From Arenicella chitinivorans (GTDB lineage: Bacteria; Pseudomonadota; Gammaproteobacteria; Arenicellales; Arenicellaceae), in contig NZ_BMXA01000008.1 of the NCBI RefSeq assembly GCF_014651515.1, forward strand, positions 62,001 to 126,000: a stretch of 64,000 nt of DNA, in the 5' to 3' direction. Below are positions 45,962 to 52,720 of the stretch, in pieces. Both the position numbers and the translations under genes were made by a program. The notes below the pieces were generated by a model that worked only from the letters and a program-made list of their open reading frames with translations, searched no databases and had not been told where the DNA came from. Position 1 is the first letter of the stretch, and each line of letters begins with the position of its first letter.

Positions 45962-46072
45962 GGTAGGATCGTTCCAGCGTGACAAAGAGGTCGCAGGATA
46001 GCACAAGCCCAGTAAGTTCTTGCAGCGTCATCAGGTCATAATTATCACACTACTTTGTTAAACTGTGATTCT

Positions 46073-46621
46073 ATGAACCGACGAACTATGCTTCTACTCT
46101 CTGCGATCGGCGCGACTGGCTCGGTCAGTTGGCTACACGCTACCGCAAAAGATGTAGACACCCAAACGCCGCCTGATACGCACAAGCCCGCTATGCCAGA
46201 CTTAGAACCGAACCCCAATCAGATCGTTCCTTTCGAATTATCCAAACACGAATGGCGCGAACGACTGTCTCCAGCCGCGTTTGATGTGCTCCGCAAAGAA
46301 GGTACGGAACGCCCATTCACTAGCCCCTTAAACGATGAAAAGCGCGACGGCGAATACGCTTGCGCAGGGTGCGGTCTGGTGCTTTTCACCGCAGCACAAA
46401 AGTTCGACAGTGGCACCGGCTGGCCAAGCTTTTTCGATACTGTGGCGGGGAGAGTTGAAACCAAACGAGACTTCAAACTAATTTTACCGAGAACCGAATA
46501 CCATTGCGCTCGCTGTGGTGGACACCAAGGCCATGTATTCAACGATGGCCCGCAACCCACCGGACTCCGTTACTGCAATAACGGCGTTGCGCTGACTTTT
46601 ATACCCGGTGACGCAGCTTAA
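46073..46621 (+). CDS. msrB: Exported peptide-methionine (R)-S-oxide reductase
   Basis: 182 residues from ATG 46073 (an upstream TTG at 46055 is less likely). The N-terminus 'MNRRTMLLLSAIGATGS' has a twin-Arg pair and hydrophobic core, so export by Tat or Sec is probable. The MsrB domain has two CxxC zinc pairs ('CAGCG' and 'CARCG'), 'SGTGWPSFF', and the catalytic Cys in 'GLRYCNNGVAL'. It repairs oxidised methionine in periplasmic proteins. Converges on the cytochrome operon with only five bases between. Confidence 0.92.
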   Translation: MNRRTMLLLSAIGATGSVSWLHATAKDVDTQTPPDTHKPAMPDLEPNPNQIVPFELSKHEWRERLSPAAFDVLRKEGTERPFTSPLNDEKRDGEYACAGCGLVLFTAAQKFDSGTGWPSFFDTVAGRVETKRDFKLILPRTEYHCARCGGHQGHVFNDGPQPTGLRYCNNGVALTFIPGDAA

Positions 46622-46626
46622 CTCGG

Positions 46627-48135
46627 TTAGTTTTCGCGACTGAGCACATACTTAGCCACCGCCAGCAGAGTCTCGTCTCCCAAATATGCTTGGGTTGGCA
46701 TCTCCGGGTAATCTGGACGTTTTTTAACCGGGTTTGCCAAGTACGCAGCTAAGCCTTCAGGGTTGTCATAATACAGCGCTTGTATGGTTTGAATTGACGG
46801 ACCGATCAAACGACCATTGTAGGAATGACAACCTGTGCACACACCTAAATAGGCAATTTTTCCGCGCTCTGATGGCTGAATTTCTCTTGGTGCGACAGGT
46901 GTGTCAAGCAGGTAGGTATCGGTAGCATCGGTGTTGCTAAAACCACACGGTTTAAACGCGTCTAAACCTACCAAGTTGTACTGATGAGGATTATTGATGC
47001 AGCTATCTTTGCCTTCACTCACATGCACGATATCTGGCTCAAACTGACTGAGCTTCAACGCCATCAGCGCTTTCACCTCTGGGATCGTGTCGTAGCCATT
47101 ATGCATCATTGTGTTGTTCAAAATAGCAACTCGATCCGGATTGGGTTCGGATTCCGGATCGATAGAGATATTGGCTGCATTGGCATGATCAACGATCAAA
47201 ATTCCGGCAGTTTTGTGATCAGAAATAAGGTTATCCTCAACGATCACATCATCCGCGGCCATGATCAGAATCCCGGTGCCGGCCGGTATACCCGCCACAG
47301 TTGACCCTGGTGCACCAAAGTTTTTGTGGTTGTTTCCGACAATAAAATTGTTCCGAATAATGACGTCGTAGGTGGTCTTAATTGGCAATCCCGGTGTAAT
47401 AAACGCCAAGATTCCGCCGGTATTGTTATGTACATAGTTATTTTCAACAATCGCATGGCGGCTGTTTTCGATCTCAATTCCAGCAACACTATCGAACACT
47501 CGATTGTGGGCCACATGCACGTTATCGCTCATGCCCACATAGATCGCCGCGTCCTCGATACCTGAAATCACATTGTGTTCCACCACACCGTTTTTACCTA
47601 ATTGCGGGAACACTCCGTAAACACCGGTATCAATAATTAGGTTGTTACGAATCTCAAAGTTATTTCCAGCCTGGCCCATGATGCCATTACCTTTGTACCC
47701 GGTGATTTGCATATTTTCCACCACCACGTTGTTACCCGAATACAGAATCGCATCATTAAGCTTACCCTTGCCATCCATAACTGCGCGTTTACCGGCTTTG
47801 ATAACACCGACTAGGTGGATATTGTCTTTATCAATATAGACTGTTTCATGATAGGTGCCCGGCATAATCTGGATGGTGGTGCCGGGCGCTGCCGCCTTAA
47901 CGGCATCTTGGATGGATTCACCGTCCTGAACGATCGCAATCACCGGATTTGCTTCACCGGCTGGGCCCGACGAGACATCATCGCCCGGTTCAGGTTGTTC
48001 AAAACCACTTTGGTAACTTCCACCGGCATTGGTACCCAAAACTACCGGCACACCACCGCTTTGCTTGCCGACTAGATAACCCAGCCCAATGGCAATCACT
48101 GCGGTTAGCAATACGAGAATAAACTTTGCTTTCAT
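46627..48135 (-). CDS. Parallel beta-helix protein with C-terminal cytochrome c domain
   Basis: 502 residues. An N-terminal TM/signal (about 4-22) is followed by a right-handed parallel beta-helix (about 65-385) with repeated 'NN.I....AGI.I' turns such as 'NVVVENMQITGYKGNGIMG' and 'GIEIENSRHAIVENNYVH'. The sequence 'NNTGGILAFITPGLP' matches the family in TIGR03805, usually paired with a c-type cytochrome partner; here a monoheme cytochrome c is fused at the C-terminus (C433-xx-CH437, axial Met479 in 'PEMPTQ'). Overlaps the peroxidase gene by four bases. Substrate unknown; an extracytoplasmic carbohydrate or polymer ligand plus electron transfer is inferred. Confidence 0.88.
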   Translation of the reverse strand: MKAKFILVLLTAVIAIGLGYLVGKQSGGVPVVLGTNAGGSYQSGFEQPEPGDDVSSGPAGEANPVIAIVQDGESIQDAVKAAAPGTTIQIMPGTYHETVYIDKDNIHLVGVIKAGKRAVMDGKGKLNDAILYSGNNVVVENMQITGYKGNGIMGQAGNNFEIRNNLIIDTGVYGVFPQLGKNGVVEHNVISGIEDAAIYVGMSDNVHVAHNRVFDSVAGIEIENSRHAIVENNYVHNNTGGILAFITPGLPIKTTYDVIIRNNFIVGNNHKNFGAPGSTVAGIPAGTGILIMAADDVIVEDNLISDHKTAGILIVDHANAANISIDPESEPNPDRVAILNNTMMHNGYDTIPEVKALMALKLSQFEPDIVHVSEGKDSCINNPHQYNLVGLDAFKPCGFSNTDATDTYLLDTPVAPREIQPSERGKIAYLGVCTGCHSYNGRLIGPSIQTIQALYYDNPEGLAAYLANPVKKRPDYPEMPTQAYLGDETLLAVAKYVLSREN

Positions 48136-49319
48136 GGTTGGCTCCTCTGATGTGTGGTCAACTCTTGACCAAGCTGCTTGTGGTTATGATCAACGGCGAG
48201 ACCAGATGGCACCTTTTGAGGGGTGTCTGGCATAAACCGTTCGTCAGTCAGTGTGTGCATAAACGCAACGATCTGATCTATTTCTAGTTCGCTCAGATCC
48301 GGACTAGTGATATGCCAATGGATCTGTAGGTCATCCGGAGCTGCGTGTCCGCGCCCGAGATTGTAGAATTCCGTTGCCTCTCGAAGATCAGCAAATACTC
48401 CGGAATGCATGTATGGCGCAGTGCGCTCGATGTTACGCAACGTCGGCACTTTAAACCCACCACGTAACTTGGGACTGGAGTACGTTCTTTGCGCACCAAC
48501 GTCAAACACCACACCCTCTGGTTCGGGCGCGCCGATCACCGCGATCTGATTGTTGGTGAACAACGGTGGTGTGTGGCACTCGGAACAGCGTGCTACAAAC
48601 GACCGAAATACATTGAGACCAGCTAATTCATCCTCACTCAAGGCTTGATGATTGCCATGCACATATTGATCGTAGCGGCTATTGAGAGAAATAAGCGATG
48701 CTTGGAACGCCGCCAGCGCTGTGTACAGGTTTGGTAGGTTTAAACCTGAATTCGGAAACGCTTGCTCGAATAAGGTTTGATACTCCGGCACCGCTTGCAA
48801 GCGAGCCAATAGGCCGTTCGGAGAGTTACCCATCTCCAGTGGGCTGTATAATGGTTCCTGCGCCTGCTGTTCCAAACTGTCGGATCGAGCGTCCCAAAAC
48901 AATTTAGAGTTAAACGCCGCATTCCATAGGCTCGGGGCTGACCGTGTACCACGACGATCGTGAATCCCTCGAGAGACCGCCAGTCCGTCCGCAAAGCCAA
49001 GCCTCGGTTGGTGACAACTCGCACACGAAATTGTCTGATTTGCCGATAAGACTGGGTCGAAGAATAGATATCGCCCAAGGTCAATCTGTTGCGGACTATA
49101 ACCATCTCGTACCGGCGGCAGACCAGTACGTGTGCCACCCACACCCCGATCTTGATTCGATGAATAAAACTGATACAAGGTCCGCAGACGGCAACCTTCA
49201 GCAGGTATCAATTCAAACCCACGAGGGCAATATTCGTTTAATATAAACTCCGAACCAGTGCTTTGATTACTGCTGATCTGTAGTACAAGCCACAACGTGA
49301 TGCCGAGAGTGCGACGCAT
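48132..49319 (-). CDS. Diheme cytochrome c peroxidase / MauG family protein
   Basis: 395 residues with a signal peptide. Two heme sites: CASCH (99-103) and CSECH (245-249). Family blocks 'LGRYLFFDPVLSANQTISC', 'GTRSAPSLWNAAFN', 'LFWDARSDSLEQQAQEPL' and 'VPTLRNIERTAPYMHSG' are present. Either reduces peroxide or, MauG-like, oxidises a protein or organic substrate. A Cys-containing extension (about 25-55: 'NEYCPRGFELIPAEGC') precedes the peroxidase domain. Middle gene of the operon. Confidence 0.93.
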   Translation of the reverse strand: MRRTLGITLWLVLQISSNQSTGSEFILNEYCPRGFELIPAEGCRLRTLYQFYSSNQDRGVGGTRTGLPPVRDGYSPQQIDLGRYLFFDPVLSANQTISCASCHQPRLGFADGLAVSRGIHDRRGTRSAPSLWNAAFNSKLFWDARSDSLEQQAQEPLYSPLEMGNSPNGLLARLQAVPEYQTLFEQAFPNSGLNLPNLYTALAAFQASLISLNSRYDQYVHGNHQALSEDELAGLNVFRSFVARCSECHTPPLFTNNQIAVIGAPEPEGVVFDVGAQRTYSSPKLRGGFKVPTLRNIERTAPYMHSGVFADLREATEFYNLGRGHAAPDDLQIHWHITSPDLSELEIDQIVAFMHTLTDERFMPDTPQKVPSGLAVDHNHKQLGQELTTHQRSQP

Positions 49320-49330
49320 CTAGAAACCCA

Positions 49331-49984
49331 CTATTTGGCGGTTAAAAACGCAATAATTGCGCTAACTTGCTCTGGGTCTCGGATAGTCGACGCCATCATC
49401 GCCATCTGCCGACCATACCGATCCTCCGGGTTCGCACCGCGCACACCGGTCTGAAAGTGCTTGAATTGACGCAACAAATAGTCCGGTGCAAGGCCCGCGA
49501 TTCTGGGGGCGTGCAGCGCCGGATTTCCTTGTCCCTCGGCACCATGACAACCACTGCAAGTTCCTTGAAAGACCTTATAACCTAGAACAGTATCCCCGTC
49601 GCTGGCCGTGCTTGAACTCGGTTCTAAGGTCGCTAGATAGGTTGAAACACTGGACCACTCAGACTCAGCAATCAGCGATGACGATGCAGCCATTTGCTTT
49701 CCATAGCTGTCAGCACCGTCTGCCCCCCGAATTCCGTTCGCGAAGTTGTGTAACTGCCGTTCCAGATAACTCGCATGCTGGCCAGCCAAAGCCGGACTCC
49801 CGAGTTGAGGGTTACCCTGCGCACCAACACCATGACAGGCACTACAGTGAGTCGCATATAAGGTAGCGCCGGGCTCCTCCGCGCAAACACCGGTGCTGTG
49901 TATCACCCACAACACCAATATACTCAGCCAACTGGGTCGACCTAGCATACACCACGTCACTTTTCTCAATCGGTCGTTTACCAC
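49331..49984 (-). CDS. Diheme cytochrome c (c4-like)
   Basis: 217 residues. Signal peptide to about 'GVCAEEPG', then two homologous cytochrome domains with CSACH (47-51) and CSGCH (143-147), each followed by 'GNPQLGSPALAGQ' / 'GNPALHAPRIAGL' and a Met-containing 'YGKQMAA' / 'YGRQMAM'. The GTG start at 49984 has AGAGGG upstream; an ATG at 49948 is possible. Likely electron donor or acceptor for the peroxidase and beta-helix cytochrome encoded downstream. Confidence 0.92.
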   Translation of the reverse strand: MVNDRLRKVTWCMLGRPSWLSILVLWVIHSTGVCAEEPGATLYATHCSACHGVGAQGNPQLGSPALAGQHASYLERQLHNFANGIRGADGADSYGKQMAASSSLIAESEWSSVSTYLATLEPSSSTASDGDTVLGYKVFQGTCSGCHGAEGQGNPALHAPRIAGLAPDYLLRQFKHFQTGVRGANPEDRYGRQMAMMASTIRDPEQVSAIIAFLTAK

Positions 49985-50114: not shown

Positions 50115-51179
50115 TTATTCAGAACCAAGTTTATGCTGACGGTACGCAGTCGGTGTAAGTCGATAAGCGTCACGAAACGCCTTATTGAATGAGCTCAAAG
50201 ACCGAAATCCGGTATCCAAAGCAATGCTCAATACGGCTTGATTTTCGTAAGCCGGGTCGGCGAGTTTGTCTCCCGCTTCGGCGATCCGAAAGCGATTCAA
50301 GTAGTCATTGAAATTACGGTATCCGAGTCCTGCGTTGATAATCTTGCGTAAGCGATACTCTGGCATCGCCATCCTGTCAGCTAATTGACCAATGGTCAGT
50401 CCCATCTCTCTATAAAGATGCTCTTGTTTCATGAGCGAATCGAGTTGTTGAACGACTTCTACCGGAACTTCTACTTCATCGACGGGACGCAAGCGAGCTG
50501 GCATCGCGTTGCTCCCAGTTTGTGTTTCCTCAGGCGTGTCCTCTGCGATCACACCCGGCTTATATTGCAGCAACAATAGGTTTGTGATTAAACAAATCGC
50601 ACCGACCGGCAAGTACTGCCATTGATCAAGCCACGGTGAGTCCGCCATAAAGATTTCGCGCATAGAAATCAGCGTGAAGATATAGCCTCCTGCAATGGCT
50701 GAAAAAACTAGGCGTAAATCTCGCCGCGACTCAACGAGGTCGTCCCGCCAGGATCGAACCACCACATATAAGGCCCAAGCCAGCAATACGAATTCGAGCG
50801 CCTGAGGCATGGTACGGTACAAAAAGTATGGCAGACCGATGTCCAAGTAGTCCACCGCGAGAATACCAATCTGCGGAATCAATACCGTGCTCAGCACCAG
50901 CATAAGGTTCCAAGGCGCTAATCGAAACCGCTCATTAAATAAGCTGGAGCAGAGTAACCAGAACAGACCTGGGATAGCATTTTCCAATGGCAATACCCAA
51001 TCACCTACCCAATGCTCACTTACCATTGGGTGTGCGATATACGCGAGAACAGCGAGCAGAAAACAAAATAGAATGGCATGTGGAAGTCGCCAGTGTTTCA
51101 CTGCAGTGAGCAGCACCGCCAAACTCAACATTACTTGTGAGGAGGCAAAAGTCAGAGCGATTATGAGTGCAGTTGACAT
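50115..51179 (-). CDS. Membrane-anchored AraC family regulator
   Basis: 354 residues. The N-terminal 210 residues hold about seven hydrophobic segments (for example 'IIALTFASSQVMLSLAVLL', 'ILFCFLLAVLAYIAH', 'VLLAWALYVVV'). The C-terminus (about 255-354) is an AraC double helix-turn-helix: 'LTIGQLADRMAMPEYRLRKI' and 'VLSIALDTGFRSLSSFNKAF' with 'RLTPTAYR'. Such proteins sense an envelope or lipid signal and act directly on DNA. Divides the cytochrome operon from the 51818 gene; targets are probably one or both. Confidence 0.9.
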   Translation of the reverse strand: MSTALIIALTFASSQVMLSLAVLLTAVKHWRLPHAILFCFLLAVLAYIAHPMVSEHWVGDWVLPLENAIPGLFWLLCSSLFNERFRLAPWNLMLVLSTVLIPQIGILAVDYLDIGLPYFLYRTMPQALEFVLLAWALYVVVRSWRDDLVESRRDLRLVFSAIAGGYIFTLISMREIFMADSPWLDQWQYLPVGAICLITNLLLLQYKPGVIAEDTPEETQTGSNAMPARLRPVDEVEVPVEVVQQLDSLMKQEHLYREMGLTIGQLADRMAMPEYRLRKIINAGLGYRNFNDYLNRFRIAEAGDKLADPAYENQAVLSIALDTGFRSLSSFNKAFRDAYRLTPTAYRQHKLGSE

Positions 51180-51817: not shown

Positions 51818-52720
51818 TTGGTGAATCAGAAGATGCAAAGTACACCAGCATCGAGAGCTCTGGCAGTTCTCGTGTTCCTGATAATGTCAGCGTATTCGGC
51901 CTGGAGCTGGTTCTTCCAACTTGGCCTTTACGGCATTCTAATTCGCGCTCAGTTTAACTTTTTTGCAGTCCACTACCCAGTGATCACCGCGATTGCCATG
52001 TGGATTGTATTGGCACTGGTGCCGCTGTCCACCTTGTTTAAAAGTCAGCGCAAACACGAGTTTCAGTTAAGTTACGACCAACTCGCGCAGCAACTGAAAC
52101 TTCGCTCTGCCGCCCTCGCTTTCTGGTTGCTCGTCAGTGGCGCGCTGGCGTACGGCTGCTACGCCATATCCAAACAGCTCCCATCAATTGAGCAGGCTGC
52201 CATCTCAATTAAACCCGACACGATTCAAGCTGACTCACTGCTCAGTGTAAGCAGAAACTGGTTCACCAAGGTTAGCATCGACGGCGATGCGGTCCCAAAC
52301 AGCCGAGTACTCGAAGAAGACGCGTTACACGAAGGCACAACAGTCTTCCGACGTTACATCCCTATCCGTGACGCGCACAATTCTCAAAGCCATGTCCACT
52401 TCGTTGAGTTGCTGCGCTCAGACTCAGTTCAGCGCATCAACCGTGCACCGGTGGAAATGACCGGTTATGTACTACCGCGAGCAGTTCCGGTGCTGGTTCG
52501 TCAGTCGTTTACCCAGGATGGGCTGGTATTGGCCAAGTATGCGTTCGTCATCGGACAAAACCCAGTCGATGGACGCACTTTGTTTCGTATTGCCACGGCT
52601 ATTCTCTTGTTGGTCTCTCTATTTTTATTGTTGGCTCTGTTGCAGTCACCGTTTCACAACCGACATAAGCTGCAAGCACAACGCGCTCACCAGGGGCGTG
52701 AGCAGCATGTAGACTGGTAG
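51818..52720 (+). CDS. Membrane protein of unknown function
   Basis: 300 residues from TTG 51818; GTG 51821 or ATG 51833 are alternatives. Hydrophobic segments near 14-35, 52-70, 98-117 and 255-278 predict four TM helices, with an extracytoplasmic domain of about 130 residues (120-250) that contains 'LLSVSRNWFTKVSIDGDAVP'. The C-terminal tail is basic and His-rich. I do not recognise a family. The next gene, a TRIC channel, starts seven bases later, so the two are probably co-transcribed. Confidence 0.75.
   Translation: MVNQKMQSTPASRALAVLVFLIMSAYSAWSWFFQLGLYGILIRAQFNFFAVHYPVITAIAMWIVLALVPLSTLFKSQRKHEFQLSYDQLAQQLKLRSAALAFWLLVSGALAYGCYAISKQLPSIEQAAISIKPDTIQADSLLSVSRNWFTKVSIDGDAVPNSRVLEEDALHEGTTVFRRYIPIRDAHNSQSHVHFVELLRSDSVQRINRAPVEMTGYVLPRAVPVLVRQSFTQDGLVLAKYAFVIGQNPVDGRTLFRIATAILLLVSLFLLLALLQSPFHNRHKLQAQRAHQGREQHVDW

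Follow-up and report, generated by a model that had tools for sequence, protein, structure and literature searches.

The window examined here is a stretch of 64,000 nucleotides from Arenicella chitinivorans (contig NZ_BMXA01000008.1, positions 62,001 to 126,000). Between positions 46627 and 49984 its minus strand carries three open reading frames (ORFs) that form a compact unit of heme proteins (Table 1). They encode a diheme c4-like cytochrome, a MauG-like diheme enzyme, and a protein, here called BH-c, in which a beta-helix of family TIGR03805 is joined to a C-terminal cytochrome domain. The BH-c and enzyme ORFs overlap by 4 bases, an 11-base gap precedes the diheme ORF, and the CXXCH motifs are divided 1, 2 and 2 among BH-c, the enzyme and the diheme protein, in agreement with the total of five heme sites given in an earlier note on this DNA. 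The same note placed the system outside the cytoplasm, in keeping with the leader or anchor sequences on the gene products; residues 2–25 of BH-c are likely a membrane anchor or signal anchor, judging from their hydrophobicity. The parts belong to known families. What appears to be new is the combination of a MauG-like enzyme with a dedicated beta-helix cytochrome partner.

A conserved three-gene unit

A scan of named genomes yields 57 loci encoding a BH-c relative, representing at most 55 genomes because L036/L086 and L069/L083 share isolate names. By their record titles, these loci fall in the Gammaproteobacteria, Betaproteobacteria, Bacteroidota and Blastocatellia, and Ruegeria pomeroyi adds the Alphaproteobacteria. 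The enzyme gene lies directly before BH-c in 52 of the 57 loci, ending between 7 base pairs (bp) inside BH-c and 94 bp before it. In two Blastocatellia loci the enzyme is fused in frame to the beta-helix (L087 2-2560; L088 6720-9116, both domains in one ORF of 798 residues), with no CXXCH after the beta-helix; the L087 ORF contains a run of unknown bases, and the residues inspected in L088 contain none. The remaining three contigs start inside BH-c and hold no upstream sequence, so that every one of the 54 loci with such sequence has the two genes linked or fused. The expectation that the three-gene set is linked elsewhere thus holds for these two genes; the diheme gene is less constant (41/57). 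The AraC neighbour that had also been pointed out is present, and an AraC gene of one cluster recurs in 24 of the 57 loci.

Samples of 398 genomes from the phylum, searched by profile, give the same picture. The BH-c profile matches seven genomes at 723–909 bits, with the next at 221, and the enzyme profile matches seven at 635–683 bits, with the next at 256. These are the same seven genomes, A. chitinivorans included, and the two genes are adjacent by coordinates in each. In the enzyme search, the match of genome G607 contains a single TAG. At looser limits, some BH-c match occurs in 43 of the 398 genomes and some enzyme match in 35. Among 274 genomes of the class, the strongest BH-c matches outside A. 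chitinivorans (G256, 868 bits; G120, 456 bits) both have an enzyme gene adjacent, and a match occurs in 11 of the 21 genomes of the window's family, in two of them only as fragments. Given this linkage and co-occurrence, the three-gene unit is real and not a product of chance.

The megaplasmid of R. pomeroyi DSS-3 carries a diverged unit in the order diheme cytochrome, enzyme, TPR protein (L089 10829-11905) and BH-c, with a divergent AraC gene alongside. It keeps the two c551 heme ligands as well as the five MauG-type residues described below. In a Cytophagales locus, BH-c is followed immediately by a further MauG-like gene (L075 8467-9441).

Table 1. Features of the three-gene unit and its AraC-family neighbour, in window coordinates
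Feature	Position	Strand	Basis or remark
BH-c, 502 residues: N-terminal hydrophobic anchor, right-handed parallel beta-helix (TIGR03805), C-terminal c551-type cytochrome domain	46627..48135	-	
BH-c N-terminal helix, residues 2-25	48061..48132	-	helix in structure model
BH-c beta-helix domain, residues 75-360	47056..47913	-	TIGR03805 match and AlgE4 A-module fold match
BH-c c551-like cytochrome domain, residues 421-502	46630..46875	-	PF00034 and c551/c552 profile matches
BH-c CXXCH, residues 433-437	46825..46839	-	
MauG-like diheme enzyme, 395 residues, with extra N-terminal Cys pair C31/C43	48132..49319	-	N-terminal leader judged by eye
Enzyme first CXXCH, residues 99-103, predicted peroxide-reacting heme	49011..49025	-	alignment to MauG
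Enzyme second CXXCH, residues 245-249, predicted six-coordinate heme	48573..48587	-	alignment to MauG
Enzyme Tyr319	48363..48365	-	aligned with MauG Tyr294 (axial ligand)
Enzyme Glu162	48834..48836	-	aligned with MauG Glu113; invariant in 35 rows
Enzyme Trp142	48894..48896	-	aligned with MauG Trp93 between the hemes; at least 90% of 35 rows
Diheme c4-like cytochrome, 217 residues, CXXCH at residues 47 and 143	49331..49984	-	
AraC-family gene, upstream of the three-gene unit	50115..51179	-	HTH_18, 53.4 bits; hydrophobic N-terminal half judged by eye

The MauG-like enzyme and its beta-helix partner

The enzyme contains a CCP_MauG domain (PF03150, E 3.5e-54) with two CXXCH motifs and is 33% identical by BLASTP to Paracoccus denitrificans MauG (L092), the enzyme of tryptophan tryptophylquinone biosynthesis. 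Its residues Trp142, Gln152, Pro156, Glu162 and Tyr319 align with MauG Trp93, Gln103, Pro107, Glu113 and Tyr294, in a numbering verified on the PDB chain. All five have roles in MauG, and the four besides the tyrosine are common to cytochrome c peroxidases, so that the tyrosine is the discriminating residue. In 35 enzyme rows Gln152, Glu162 and Tyr319 are invariant and Trp142 and Pro156 reach at least 90%, and the Tyr319 position is Tyr in all 52 aligned rows. The enzyme thus carries an axial tyrosine like MauG, and the methionine that ligates the C-terminal heme of classical bacterial cytochrome c peroxidases is not present. The earlier description as a MauG/CcpA-like peroxidase stands as to the CCP_MauG family and needs correction as to the axial ligand, which is not the Met of CcpA. 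Excerpted references of PMC6405878 also name MauG Tyr294 and Glu113. The presence of these MauG-type residues points to high-valent chemistry, powered either by peroxide or by O2 and electrons.

An assignment of the enzyme to MauG or to MbnH was rejected, as both curated cut-offs are missed: the MauG equivalog TIGR03791 scores 183.3 of the 443.85 bits required, and MbnH (TIGR04039), the best NCBIfam match, 224.7 of 362.85. TIGR04039 gives 195–230 bits for the enzymes of Ruegeria, Paraferrimonas and Gelidibacter and for the L088 fusion. An N-terminal Cys pair and a GRGHA...HWHI motif are marks specific to this family. Partners of the known enzymes do not distinguish the genome: the methylamine dehydrogenase light chain (PF02975) and MbnP (TIGR04052) have no matches in A. 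chitinivorans, and none in the control genomes either.

BH-c exceeds the TIGR03805 cut-off over residues 75–360 (183.3 versus 141.5 bits) and that of PF00034 over residues 423–499 (23.0 versus 21.3 bits), which bears out the proposal of a TIGR03805 beta-helix with a heme domain. Its C-terminal domain aligns with cytochromes c551/c552 through the CXXCH and the methionine of an MPP motif, with His437 and Met479 on the ligand positions. Heme binding by BH-c, which had been put forward earlier, is accordingly a prediction from sequence, with Met479 as the likely second ligand. The idea that a cytochrome normally paired with this beta-helix is here fused to it survives in part; a cytochrome is fused, but it is a c551-type monoheme domain and not a TIGR03806 protein. 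The separate diheme protein matches PF00034 (E 3.8e-23), with Cytochrom_C covering two stretches.

The structure model of BH-c (predicted local distance difference test, pLDDT, 85.6) is a right-handed beta-helix whose closest fold is the A-module of the mannuronan epimerase AlgE4 (VIA Z 30.9, root-mean-square deviation 2.2, 279 residues), with NosD at Z 26.3. These proteins share only 16–18% identity with BH-c, which, unlike them, carries a fused heme domain. Foldseek with the whole model gives E 3.9e-8 and a TM-score of 0.40. The modelled fold is compatible with carbohydrate-active beta-helices, as the note's idea of a system acting on a bound polymer or carbohydrate would have it, but similarity of fold does not establish function. 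When BH-c is searched against PDB sequences, the matches are mostly cytochromes, through the heme domain only, and the beta-helix part reaches E 0.16 or worse.

The 52 aligned BH-c rows contain 101 invariant positions, among which His437 is the sole histidine. Neither the BH-c rows nor the diheme protein has a conserved tryptophan; BH-c of the window contains none at all, and the best column is 50% Trp, with Phe in the window's protein. Tryptophan modification of BH-c is therefore unlikely, and a modification of the type known from MauG and from MbnH, which is reportedly tied to kynurenine, was rejected both for BH-c and for the diheme cytochrome. For these alignments open-ended and short proteins were excluded, as were, by hand, L062, L087, L088 and L004 from the enzyme rows and L004, L010, L018, L019, L031, L087 and L088 from the BH-c rows; the sets used for conservation, 39 BH-c rows (A1) and 35 enzyme rows (A2), were chosen by hand.

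Receptors, sister loci and other neighbours

A TonB-dependent receptor or SusC scoring above 200 bits lies near 32 of the 57 loci, and L037 has another, found by Pfam. The receptor is upstream of the AraC gene in most loci, divergent in Bowmanella, and 27–113 bp downstream of BH-c in seven loci; a SusC-SusD pair follows BH-c by 38–75 bp in four of the six Bacteroidota loci. Receptors of 12 loci (seven downstream, five in other placements) match the linked receptor of another placement group at 380–760 bits. Against the best of eight receptors from the A. chitinivorans genome they reach 142–203 bits, in a comparison that used eight of that genome's 24 receptor matches and is independent of the receptor hidden Markov model; the model was built from the linked receptors themselves, and its scores for them are partly circular. 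Because linked receptors match each other above those of A. chitinivorans, one subfamily tends to accompany the unit; membership in it is not clear for the receptors of L051 and L091.

The same beta-helix family occurs in a sister class, in which the heme partner is a TIGR03806 diheme cytochrome of the SO2930 family (351.5 bits in L091, cut-off 313.3). A TIGR03806-type cytochrome gene accompanies the beta-helix gene in nine of 14 such loci fetched (by similarity, L154 included), and no MauG-type gene is labelled beside those nine. Two of the loci, L153 and L154, encode a beta-helix 35–36% identical to that of BH-c, the match ending before the cytochrome domain, and then, on one strand, a TIGR03806-type cytochrome and a receptor of the same subfamily as above (47–56% identity). 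Since these loci carry the same receptor subfamily, they suggest a common core of beta-helix and receptor with exchangeable heme partners. Ten neighbours from the sister class revealed no common theme. TIGR03806 has no match in A. chitinivorans, where the neighbour of BH-c is MauG-like instead, and none in the controls. The Shewanella proteins SO2930 and SO2931 are named, in the literature passages that mention them, merely as c-type cytochromes of the outer membrane.

Other neighbours vary by lineage. The gene row of the four SusC loci extends to a PKD-domain protein and an aldehyde dehydrogenase. A GH5 protein follows in three Gelidibacter loci; that of L167 is nearest to endoglycoceramidase II. 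The aldehyde dehydrogenase of L168 is class 3 when compared with PDB sequences, and those of L077 and L059 are nearest in NCBIfam to benzaldehyde dehydrogenase MdlD, below its cut-off. A fatty-acid hydroxylase family gene lies between BH-c and the receptor in a metagenome-assembled genome of Undibacterium (L071 2215-3471). Two Thalassotalea loci have a DUF3604 protein beside the unit (L048 10287-12158, tested; L049 9593-11461, by clustering), and a third Thalassotalea locus encodes a 4-hydroxyproline epimerase a few kilobases from it (L045 12931-13944; 593.6 bits, cut-off 376). Related catabolic genes occur near this epimerase as well as in L056 and L065. Hydroxyproline catabolism was rejected as the unit's purpose, because the epimerase, amino-acid dehydrogenase and pyrroline-carboxylate reductase lie near few loci only; the neighbours of this type, clusters 9 and 19, are found in L045, L056, L059 and L065 and in L047, L056 and L065, respectively. 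Galactose genes upstream in two Porticoccaceae loci and a CoA-transferase/thioesterase in one locus were set aside as clues, each being confined to a single lineage.

Within the window, the AraC-family protein likely regulates the three-gene unit. Divergent from its gene, 51818-52720 on the plus strand encodes a 300-residue protein that appears membrane-like by eye and has no Pfam or NCBIfam match at E 0.001. On the other side, a convergent gene for an MsrB-type methionine sulfoxide reductase with an RR-containing leader (46055-46621, plus strand) ends 5 bases from the BH-c stop; by tblastn across the 57 loci, such a gene is near the unit only in the close relative L086. Scans for promoters (2 sites versus 6.1 in shuffled sequence) and terminators (5 versus 5.1) do not exceed expectation, and Rfam finds nothing at gathering scores between 45000 and 52000.

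Readings of the unit and their weight

MauG-type enzymes rely on two hemes to keep oxidising power in reserve some way from the target. The reading we favour, with a probability of roughly 0.4, is that of a periplasmic, membrane-anchored oxidation complex in which BH-c presents an imported ligand, the MauG-like enzyme oxidises it and the cytochromes move electrons. The substrate would most likely be an oligosaccharide, a glycoconjugate or a ligand of that kind. In many hosts it would enter through the cognate TonB-dependent receptor, to be bound and presented by the beta-helix. The enzyme would dock on BH-c, be driven by H2O2, or by O2 and electrons, to a high-valent diheme state, and oxidise whatever the beta-helix holds, while electron traffic with both the enzyme and the respiratory chain would run through the c551 domain and the diheme cytochrome. 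A putative aldehyde product may be processed further by the aldehyde dehydrogenase present in some hosts. Three observations favour a lasting complex: the enzyme and BH-c are tightly paired, the enzyme is fused to the beta-helix in two loci, and the sister class uses another heme partner. In such a complex the beta-helix, with the receptor, would define the ligand and the heme proteins would perform the oxidation. The substrate class itself is a guess, guided by the fold and a few neighbours.

A bolder extension, which we regard as doubtful, is that the beta-helix and TonB receptor core is a substrate-presenting scaffold with exchangeable heme heads, the MauG-like enzyme and c551 domain in one lineage and the TIGR03806 diheme cytochrome in another, oxidising an imported glycoconjugate or oligomer. 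The enzyme would then be the first Tyr-ligated MauG-type enzyme with a bound non-protein target in place of a partner's tryptophan.

Several results weigh against the oxidation complex. First, the scan sought BH-c peptides and so favoured close relatives, many loci come from related Alteromonadales and their counts are not independent, and the correlation between BH-c and enzyme distances (r 0.73, 0 of 500 permutations) partly reflects species phylogeny. Second, the diheme gene is missing despite sufficient room in L053, L061-L063, L072, L077-L081 and L088. Third, the receptor is not essential, because A. chitinivorans itself has no close member of the subfamily; among its 24 receptor matches the best-scoring is 29% identical and the highest identity is 36% over 203 residues. 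The shared receptor occurs in only two of the 14 sister-class loci. L091 has two receptors next to its TIGR03806 pair; one matches A. chitinivorans receptors better than linked ones, and the other reaches 246 bits only. An aldehyde dehydrogenase of the cluster concerned lies near only 10 of the 57 loci. Finally, full-length phmmer against PDB sequences ranks cytochrome c peroxidases first (165 bits; MauG 118.6), MauG leading only for the C-terminal part of the enzyme. In the fold search with the best of five enzyme models (pLDDT 81.8 to 67.2), MacA and 6e1c (both Z 31.3) precede MauG (28.7).

The strongest rival, ahead of plain peroxide defence and metal handling, is maturation, in which the enzyme would install a Tyr-derived cofactor in the beta-helix and BH-c would then act as a dehydrogenase that hands electrons to the diheme cytochrome by way of its c551 heme. 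Three tyrosines of BH-c, Tyr95, Tyr173 and Tyr199, show no variation in 39 rows and are kept in Ruegeria, and the fused cytochrome would be a natural electron exit. This reading is nevertheless fairly unlikely. BH-c has no conserved tryptophan, and MauG Trp199, which lies at the protein-substrate interface, is replaced in the enzyme by Phe241, invariant in 35 rows. Nine of the 14 sister loci pair the beta-helix with a TIGR03806-type cytochrome and no labelled MauG-type gene, and the existence of loci in which the enzyme is fused to the beta-helix points to a complex that persists. MauG does modify a partner protein, and a passage of PMC5739008 proposes the same for a MauG homologue beside methanethiol oxidase.

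Peroxide defence, with an ordinary diheme peroxidase fed by the cytochromes and the beta-helix as its anchor, is quite unlikely, although the CCP_MauG fold and the best overall sequence and fold scores (Z about 31) are those of bacterial cytochrome c peroxidases such as MacA. The enzyme differs from these in its axial Tyr in place of Met and in its fixed partnership with a highly conserved beta-helix, and an uptake receptor is frequently linked. BthA, which also has a tyrosine heme ligand and whose Y463M variant appears among the PDB fold matches, is a precedent for such activity. According to a passage of PMC6405878, BthA reaches a bis-Fe(IV) state yet turns over H2O2.

An improbable third reading is metal handling, specifically of copper, along the lines of MbnH/MbnP beside TonB receptors or of NosD. 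The best NCBIfam match of the enzyme is MbnH, one of its two best fold matches, 6e1c, is a MauG-like protein of copper homeostasis by its title, and the NosD fold matches BH-c. The unit resembles the MbnH/MbnP system in pairing a MauG-like enzyme with a partner of its own, in many cases close to a TonB receptor; a passage of PMC3621798 reports that MbnT often adjoins the MbnP/MbnH pair. However, the partner here is a beta-helix protein, the cut-offs of both MbnH and NosD (TIGR04247, 61.6 of 300 bits) are missed, and the only invariant histidine of BH-c belongs to the heme, leaving no evident metal site.

An oxygenase acting on a hydrophobic compound, in the manner of RoxA or of the oleate dioxygenase PA2077, is more improbable still: it draws support from neighbours of a lipid type, each in a single lineage (class 3 aldehyde dehydrogenase, endoglycoceramidase-like GH5, fatty-acid hydroxylase family), but the enzyme has 395 residues and a Tyr where RoxA/FadCcp-type oxygenases, as listed for PA2077/PA2078 in a passage of PMC4496055, have about 67–69 kDa and a third His ligand, and RoxA is not among the 29 PDB sequences listed for the enzyme, from a PDB copy not checked for its presence.

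Among the openly licensed PMC papers listed by the searches, none describes the gene set in its title or the opening of its abstract, and none is a functional study of TIGR03805 beta-helix proteins. To our knowledge, few physiological targets of MauG-type enzymes are known. The unit represents a widespread family in which the partner is fixed and unusual and an uptake gate is probable. It offers a route to the function of TIGR03805 beta-helix proteins, and it occurs in the much-used marine strain R. pomeroyi DSS-3.

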